In this document: piece by piece, positions 3,347 through 44,003 of the stretch
Numbering within the stretch: the stretch's first letter is position 1
Layout: every line of letters begins with the position of its first letter
Assembly (NCBI GenBank): GCA_947302825.1
Contig: CAMYWP010000002.1
Coordinates: forward strand, 1-54,324
Reading direction: 5' to 3'
Source of the DNA: an uncultured Bacteroidales bacterium
Lineage (GTDB): Bacteria; Bacteroidota; Bacteroidia; Bacteroidales; UBA932
Length of the DNA stretch: 54,324 bases
Made by a program: the position numbers and the translations under genes
Notes under the pieces: generated by a model
Seen by the model: the letters and a program-made list of their open reading frames with translations, nothing else
What the model was told of the DNA's origin: nothing
The model's database searches: none

Positions 3347-3456
3347 TCCTGGCAACCAACCCTCTCACACTCAACACATTACAAAAAGTAATCGTTCAAA
3401 ATTTGAACGATTACTTTACGGTAACACGCTGTGAATCAGGTGATTAGTTGCCAGGA
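3347..3456. repeat. nested inverted-repeat intergenic element (copy 1)
   Basis: Outer arms TCCTGGCAAC 3347-3356 / GTTGCCAGGA 3447-3456; inner near-perfect palindrome AAAGTAATCGTTCAAA-A-TTTGAACGATTACTTT 3385-3417. Confidence 0.8.
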
Positions 3457-3459
3457 AAA

Positions 3460-4563
3460 TTAGACGTTGAAGAGGAAGTGCATGATGTCGCCGTCCTGGA
3501 CTACGTAGTCTTTGCCTTCGATGCCCATTTTTCCGGCGGCGCGGACGGCGGCTTCGGTCTTGTACTGCACGAAATCTTCGTACTTGATGACTTCGGCGCG
3601 GATGAAGCCGCGTTCGAAGTCCGTGTGGATGACACCCGCGGCGCGGGGGGCTTTGTCGCCGGCCACGATGGTCCACGCGCGGCATTCATCGGCCCCGGCG
3701 GTGAAGAAGGTCCGAAGGCCCAGGAGCCGATAGGCGCTCTGGATCAGGCGAACTACGCCGCTCTCCTGCAGCCCCATCTCTTCCAGGAACATCTGACGGT
3801 CTTCGTAGTCTTCAATTTCGGCGATCTCTGCCTCCGTACGGGCGGCGATGACCAGGATCTGTGCATGCTCGGAAGCCACGGCGGAGCGGACGGCTTCTAC
3901 ATAAGCGTTGCCGGTGGCGGCAGATCCTTCATCCACGTTGCATACGTACAGGACGGGCTTATTGGTGAGCAGGTAAAGGTCACGGGCCATCTGCTCCTCT
4001 TCGGGATTCTCCGGCACCACTTCGCGGCAGGAACGGCCCTGCTGAAGCACTTCGCGGTAACGAAGCAGCAGGTTCAGCAGTTTCTTGGCGTCTTTGTCGC
4101 CGCCGGTAGTAGCCTGTTTCTCAACCTTCTTGATACGGTTTTCCACCGTTTCCAGATCTTTGAGCTGGAGTTCGGCATCTACAACCTCCTTGTCCCGGAC
4201 AGGATCTACTGTGCCGTCTACGTGGACGATGTTGCCGTCGTCGAAGCAGCGCAGCACGTGCAGGATGGCATCGCATTCGCGGATATTGGCCAGGAACTGG
4301 TTACCCAGGCCCTCCCCGCGGGAGGCGCCTTTCACCAAGCCGGCAATGTCCACGATTTCAACCGTGGCGGGAATGGTGCGCTTGGGCTGGCAGATTTCCG
4401 TAAGCACCTCCAGGCGCTTGTCGGGCACATTGGTGGAACCCACATTGGGCTCAATGGTGCAGAAAGGGAAGTTGGCGCTCTGGGCTTTGCCGGAGCTCAC
4501 GCAGTTAAATAAAGTAGACTTGCCCACATTGGGCAAGCCTACTATTCCACACTTTAAAGACAT
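3460..4563 (-). CDS. ychF: redox-regulated GTPase/ATPase YchF
   Basis: MSLKCGIVGLPNVGKSTLFN, DIAGLVKGASRGEGLGNQFL, C-terminal TGS-like domain. Confidence 0.97.
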   Translation of the reverse strand: MSLKCGIVGLPNVGKSTLFNCVSSGKAQSANFPFCTIEPNVGSTNVPDKRLEVLTEICQPKRTIPATVEIVDIAGLVKGASRGEGLGNQFLANIRECDAILHVLRCFDDGNIVHVDGTVDPVRDKEVVDAELQLKDLETVENRIKKVEKQATTGGDKDAKKLLNLLLRYREVLQQGRSCREVVPENPEEEQMARDLYLLTNKPVLYVCNVDEGSAATGNAYVEAVRSAVASEHAQILVIAARTEAEIAEIEDYEDRQMFLEEMGLQESGVVRLIQSAYRLLGLRTFFTAGADECRAWTIVAGDKAPRAAGVIHTDFERGFIRAEVIKYEDFVQYKTEAAVRAAGKMGIEGKDYVVQDGDIMHFLFNV

Positions 4564-37396: not shown

Positions 37397-37510
37397 ACCC
37401 CGTGGAGGTAAATGTCTGAAAATCAGCGTATAACGTAAAATCGATTATGCGGAACGGCATAATCGATTTTACACAACTCGCTTTAAATCAAGCGTTTAGC
37501 ACCACGGGGT
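37397..37510. repeat. nested inverted-repeat intergenic element (copy 2)
   Basis: Outer arms ACCCCGTGG 37397-37405 / CCACGGGGT 37502-37510; inner arms GTAAAATCGATTATGC 37435-37450 / GCATAATCGATTTTAC 37457-37472. Confidence 0.8.
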
Positions 37511-37526: not shown

Positions 37527-37610
37527 TTAATTCCGAATCAGAGGATTGTAGTCCAGTTCCTTTTGGGGAACGAAGTAGGTCCACTTGTAGTTGGCTTCCG
37601 GTAAGGAGCT
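37527..37610 (-). pseudogene. SusD/RagB C-terminal relic (27 codons + stop)
   Basis: Minus-strand translation SSLPEANYKWTYFVPQKELDYNPLIRN*, matching SusD C-termini (the intact SusD at 41188-42759 ends NRWTWKIPKAETDYNSLISLD*); in-frame TAA and TAG immediately upstream. Confidence 0.75.
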
Positions 37611-43881: not shown

Positions 43882-43917
43882 GCCGGCAAGGTATGCATAC
43901 TTGTCAGGGAATCCAAG

Positions 43918-43971
43918 AATCGTAAAAAAGATTGTGTTGTTTCAGGTGTTTTTTGTACCTTTTTTACGATT
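43918..43971. promoter_or_regulatory. 13-bp perfect inverted repeat in the RAYT/hflX divergent promoter region
   Basis: AATCGTAAAAAAG 43918-43930 / CTTTTTTACGATT 43959-43971. Confidence 0.6.
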
Positions 43972-44003
43972 TCCCTCCAAGCGTAGAATCTCCATTTTCT
44001 TCG

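Follow-up and report, generated by a model that had tools for sequence, protein, structure and literature searches.

What is known of RAYT-REPIN systems comes mostly from Proteobacteria. REPIN or BIME elements with their RAYT (TnpAREP) have been described in P. fluorescens SBW25 and E. coli (PMC3116915, PMC6006769). Among the TnpAY1 proteins, subclass 2.6 of Bacteroidetes goes with "atypical secondary structures" and has a median length of 179 aa and the motifs NH[LIV]H and YIH[QN]NP, and subclass 2.4 goes with "double foot" REPs bearing the feet GT[AG]G/C[TC]AC and has a median length of 194 aa and the motif NH[IFV]H (PMC6006769). CGTC-tagged REPs, which often form head-to-head dimers, have been reported without a linked transposase (PMC3733652). 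Here, we describe two nested palindromes from an uncultured Bacteroidales bacterium that very probably represent two families of REPIN-like non-autonomous elements, mobilised by cognate RAYT-like Y1 (HUH) transposases and tolerated at gene ends.

The window, that is, the whole analysed stretch of 54,324 nucleotides, corresponds to contig C2 of a MAG of 2.03 Mb with 76% completeness (G000, the host genome). An earlier sequence-only reading had proposed that the palindrome at 37397-37510 shares its geometry with another at 3.35 kb. The former is confirmed, with 9-bp outer arms, 29-nt spacers, 16-bp inner arms, and a 6-nt loop, and the geometry is the same overall at both sites, except that the outer arms of the 3.35-kb element have 10 bp and one of its spacers has 28 nt. 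The spacers of the two elements are related, as had been noticed: ACNCGCTNNNAATCANNNNNTTA fits 3424-3446 and 37476-37498, both on the plus strand, with 0 mismatches. A minus-strand stop codon does adjoin each element, that of ychF (3460-3462) at 3 nt and a TAA at 17 nt. The features are as follows.

3347-3456, no strand: family B element; core 3348-3455, outer arms TCCTGGCAAC/GTTGCCAGGA, core sequence AAAGTAATCGTTCAAA, CM match of 72 bits
3385-3417, no strand: family B central stem; 16-bp arms, 1-nt centre
3460-4563, minus strand: ychF GTPase gene, from Pfam YchF-GTPase_C and ortholog comparison; its stop abuts the family B element
37397-37510, no strand: family A element, near-palindromic; core 37400-37507 (108 bp), CM match of 86 bits, 1.3e-18
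37397-37405, no strand: family A left outer arm ACCCCGTGG; its partner is 37502-37510
37406-37434, no strand: family A left spacer; motif TAA..CTGA..TCAG..TTA
37435-37472, no strand: family A central stem-loop; 16-bp stem, 6-nt loop, family core AAATCGATTA
37435-37450/37457-37472, no strand: inner arms of the 37.4-kb element, 16 bp
37473-37501, no strand: family A right spacer; inverted copy of the left-spacer motif
37502-37510, no strand: family A right outer arm CCACGGGGT, 9 bp
37527-37529, minus strand: TAA that ends a short open frame; distance to the 37.4-kb element 17 nt

The 54-nt arms of the 37.4-kb element are 72% complementary overall, and the complementarity of 37/54 positions is above the highest value, 33, that 100 Markov shuffles of the full window gave. 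A detector based on outer arms and a central stem found exactly these two elements in the window and none in three shuffled windows. Folding of the elements as single-stranded DNA gave z-scores of -9.0/-8.5 and -7.9, and an Rfam search of the window returned nothing above the gathering score.

The two palindromes belong to two families with one architecture of about 108 bp: an outer stem encloses, in order, a spacer of 25 to 29 nt, a central stem-loop, and a further spacer. Family A, with the half-unit GYGTGGAGRTAAGT..CTGA..TCAG..TTAC-AAAATCGATTA, has 13 copies in the host genome by DNA search, each exactly 108 bp without an indel, at a mean pairwise identity of 64% (n = 13). For family B (CCTGGCAAC..TAA, core AAAGTAATCGTTC), the count is 35, with lengths of 105 to 108 bp. 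R1, a covariance model drawn from 57 copies that span many families, matches the host genome 142 times counting both strands, or at about 71 places, and an independent profile finds 70 elements. The suggestion of an element family thus holds: rather than two copies without covariation, the genome carries about 70, and covariation is present in their outer and central stems. A single genome has several families whose arms are unrelated. Among 24 other genomes of the same genus, R1 yields from 0 to at least 93 matches, with some in 23 of them, and in 16 genomes from other families of the order it yields none or one weak match. The window also contains another kind of repeat at 43909-43972, about 65 bp long and with inverted ends of 13 bp (43918-43930/43959-43971), which has many matches in the genome of a sister species (RUG11937, here G077) at 77 to 90% identity.

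The outer and central stems covary both within and between families. Variable central pairs of family A are compensated, as at columns 49/60 (CG in 4 copies, GC in 4, and UA in 4; n = 13), and across families the two stems hold 474 double-change cells versus 147 in shuffles; the percentage paired in the multi-family alignment is inflated because its copies were chosen by complementarity, so that pairing there is partly by construction. The central stem has a conserved pattern of A-tract, GC-stem, and T-tract. No pairing covariation was detected in the spacers under either folding tested, and for a REP-type half-unit hairpin there is none within the halves, whose consensus is only pseudo-palindromic. 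The spacer consensus TAA..CTGAnnnTCAG..TTA therefore looks like a motif that would be read as sequence. With that refinement, the earlier idea that structure is recognised applies to the outer and central stems alone. RNA structure was rejected as the main reading, since neither a continuous long hairpin nor a three-hairpin cloverleaf is supported by the evolution of the spacers, despite good folding.

The sequence-only reading had also considered a transposase or recombinase site, and this is supported, the linked enzyme being a Y1 HUH transposase of the RAYT type rather than a tyrosine recombinase. Five matches to Y1_Tnp (PF01797) are present in the host genome, and the domain is frequent in the genus, where the Y1 proteins split into two groups. 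The element-linked clade consists mostly of proteins of 310 to 337 aa in which HxH, the catalytic Tyr, and NN(P) are invariant or nearly so, mostly as DHxH and Y[VLI]xNNP, in keeping with a HUH fold. Its best family is NCBIfam REP_Tyr_transpos, at 29 to 43 bits (E down to 4e-11), with the maximum of 43 bits below the curated cut-off of 80. Since searching the PDB by sequence yielded nothing beyond non-significant IS200-type matches, a structure model was built. The AlphaFold2 model (pLDDT 88) combines a HUH domain at the N-terminus with a C-terminal domain made up entirely of helices; in the PDB it is matched best by 4er8, the RAYT-REP complex of E. coli, then by ISDra2 and IS608. The best 80 relatives in GTDB genomes all come from uncultured Bacteroidales or Bacteroidia, largely from rumen samples. 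A phage or plasmid origin was rejected, as there was no phage match and a single weak match to a Rhodospirillum plasmid. The second Y1 group, of about 290 to 350 aa, is common in the genus (e.g., L045, L063, L071, and L098) and is not flanked by elements; it was discarded as a source of the cognate transposase on that ground.

Elements and RAYT genes are closely linked. At 92 of 103 RAYT-clade loci an element lies within 450 nt, on both sides at 59, and few elements lie near ychF loci or loci of the other Y1 group. Across genomes of the same genus, those with the RAYT clade have 12 to at least 93 matches versus 0 to 28 in those without it (p = 4e-5). In the host genome, a family A copy sits directly upstream of the RAYT gene on contig C53, and the ortholog of this RAYT in the sister species (L122; 87% identical) has a family A copy on each side. 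The C53 protein ends in EIGRAHV, the peptide that an Illumina adapter would specify (L051 27-60, at the start of the contig); the contig end looks like adapter read-through, with the true C-terminus missing. The RAYTs on C81 and C102 are flanked by copies of other families. For family B, the RAYT on C21 of the sister species has two B-type copies as flanks, and its syntenic ortholog in the host genome, on C108, is 70% identical and has no adjoining element. Since the link runs through the ortholog, the C108 RAYT is assigned to family B as probable only. This gene shows 67% DNA identity between the two species versus 88% in the adjoining DNA (L061 501-1514, L319 1861-2784), which suggests rapid change or the replacement of an allele.

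Copies on the 5' and 3' sides of one RAYT agree at 0.51 in the outer arms and 0.60 in the central arms, compared with 0.32 and 0.37 between RAYTs, and the spacers differ little in this respect (0.41 within versus 0.36 between). The outer and central arms are thus specific to each RAYT, and the spacer motif is common to all.

The elements are concentrated at the ends of genes. A long reading frame ends -16 to +15 nt from one end of 51 of the 64 testable elements in the host genome (about 80%), and 30 (47%) lie between two stop codons, often of convergent genes; random re-insertion outside long frames places 16% at one such end and 0% at both. The pattern is the same in the sister species, where 18 of 45 elements have frame ends on both sides. 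Several genes now terminate at the element's own conserved TAA.

Comparison of genomes, as the sequence-only reading had advised, turned up empty sites at ychF and at one site in the sister species. The interval 3' of ychF holds family B in the host genome, another family in G054 and G053, and no element in G019, where gene order is unchanged. At the second site, a family B element is replaced by 17 bp in the sister species. No target duplication is apparent at either empty site, a comparison limited by diverged flanks. At the 37.4-kb site, the element is absent from the sister species, in which the neighbouring gene content differs. An ordinary terminator-like hairpin takes the place of the element in G003 and, at the 37.4-kb site, in the sister species. 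Among closely related strains, no case of transposition was caught. Compared with the sister species, the stretch bounded by two family B copies (L202 1450-4623) is inverted, and both of its breakpoints fall at elements; another family B copy (L213 1513-1619) has its two flanks on opposite strands there, which suggests another rearrangement at an element.

Elements in the two species can be matched at 28 candidate sites. Because the sequence taken from the sister species was that surrounding its own elements, sites that it has lost are under-counted. Where both flanks of a family A copy could be matched, the spacers are mostly 0.84 to 1.00 identical. By an arm-based classification, the central arms of family B are of type TAA (27 copies), TTT (3), and minor types in the host genome and of type TCC (22) in the sister species, and TTC, a minor type with two copies per species, is the only one present in both. 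At 13 orthologous family B sites, the element is in the same place and the central arms all differ, on both sides (TAA or a minor variant versus TCC), and spacer identity is 0.63 versus 0.54 at unrelated sites (0 of 500 permutations). Either these elements were rewritten in place or the sites were re-occupied. It is conceivable, and in our judgment rather unlikely, that resident elements at fixed sites have their recognition arms rewritten genome-wide as their RAYT changes; this would amount to concerted transposase-driven editing of resident elements, beyond the insertion of new ones. Between the two sister species in which the arms would differ through rewriting, the probable cognate RAYT retains about 70% identity. 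One family B copy lies in frame within a long transporter-like gene (about 515 codons) in both species (L203 1529-1637; counterpart L364), and its left central arm keeps the species-typical TAA/TCC difference despite being coding sequence.

We infer a mechanism in which each family is served by its own RAYT, whose gene lies elsewhere in the genome, flanked by copies of that family. The element would fold in vivo through its outer stem and central stem-loop on the single-stranded lagging-strand template, and the cognate RAYT would read the family-specific arms plus the common spacer motif. Its catalytic tyrosine would cleave at the element ends, and the RAYT would then move or copy the element as single-stranded DNA, with no target duplication. 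New copies would survive mainly at stop codons or within a few bases of them because insertions there leave genes unbroken. To judge from its A-tract, GC-stem, and T-tract, the central hairpin may perhaps act as a two-way terminator between convergent genes.

That last property raises the question of whether the elements are primarily bidirectional terminators or 3'-end RNA structures of the host, with the RAYT link secondary through domestication or hitch-hiking. The squeezing of nearly half of the elements between two stop codons, the conserved tract pattern of the central stem, and the ordinary hairpins that stand in for elements at the same places are what such a role would predict. A terminator has no use, however, for an outer stem and spacers, and the specificity of the arms to the flanking RAYT, the several families of unrelated arms per genome, and the tracking of copy number with RAYT presence all point to the transposase; a simple terminator scan did not call the central stem of the 37.4-kb element. 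We consider a primary terminator role improbable.

Mobility by other enzymes fares worse against the same linkage. Classical MITEs, whose terminal inverted repeats are moved by a DDE transposase, would share the inverted ends, fixed size, dispersed copies, and presence/absence differences seen here, but the matching copies flank the Y1 RAYT clade, a covarying central stem is unneeded by MITEs, and the empty sites show no duplicated target as far as their diverged flanks allow; we regard this origin as very unlikely. Tyrosine recombinase sites, whether integron attC-like, Xer-like, or of the invertible-promoter kind, come to mind since folded imperfect palindromes with variable arms recall attC and the two species differ by an inversion bounded by family B copies. 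Recombination between repeats also explains that inversion, however, the linked proteins are Y1 HUH enzymes, and the copies stand singly at the ends of ordinary genes, with no cassette-like gene arrays seen, so we give such sites hardly any credence. Chance palindromes or assembly artefacts might be suspected in a fragmented assembly from a MAG, but we dismiss them given some 70 copies of fixed geometry, their absence from shuffled sequence, and the recurrence of the architecture in dozens of independent MAGs. RAYT-mobilised, REPIN-like elements tolerated at gene ends remain by far the best account.

An uncultured, mostly rumen genus of Bacteroidales thus appears to hold a rich, multi-family version of the RAYT-REPIN system with a distinct transposase clade. 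Its element is modular, in that the specificity arms vary around a constant spacer motif. Dozens of natural enzyme/substrate pairs make the co-evolution of RAYT specificity and element sequence testable, as is the question of whether elements are retained because they terminate transcription where genes converge, and the family B sites offer a clear setting in which to ask whether resident elements undergo rewriting in place.

Compared with REPIN/BIME, the elements are likewise dispersed, extragenic, hairpin-forming inverted doublets of about 110 bp; each family has one RAYT with copies on its flanks (a REPtron), a genome has several families, and the enzymes share the HUH/Y1 fold, with 4er8 as the nearest solved structure. 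Unlike REPIN/BIME, they have no conserved GT[AG]G foot, and their common end is closer to SCGT: in the multi-family alignment, the canonical foot is absent from most families, with GTGG in some and GTCG, GTGA, GTAA, GTTT, or CTGG in others. Their half-units are unsupported as hairpins, variable and covarying central and outer stems flank a near-constant spacer motif, and the RAYT has about 310 to 337 aa with an all-helical C-terminal domain, compared with about 165 aa in REPIN/BIME. Subclass 2.6 is similar in phylum, in flanking structures without GT[AG]G, and in having copies elsewhere in the genome, but differs in protein length and motifs (here about 310 to 337 aa, mostly DHxH, and Y[VLI]xNNP). 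With subclass 2.4, the clade shares a YIxNNP-like tyrosine motif, occurrence in Bacteroidetes, and REPs with inverted feet at both ends, but the feet GT[AG]G/C[TC]AC were not found across families here, and NH[IFV]H and 194 aa belong to subclass 2.4. Some families start with CGTC, as CGTC REPs do, but CGTC is only one variant here (alongside CGTG, CGTA, and CGTT), and the RAYT linkage is strong. Because the elements lack a conserved GT[AG]G foot and covariation support for hairpin half-units, and the enzyme departs in motifs and length from the Bacteroidetes-rich subclasses, we call this a new variant: the system works like REPIN-RAYT, yet in a variant form distinct from canonical REPINs.
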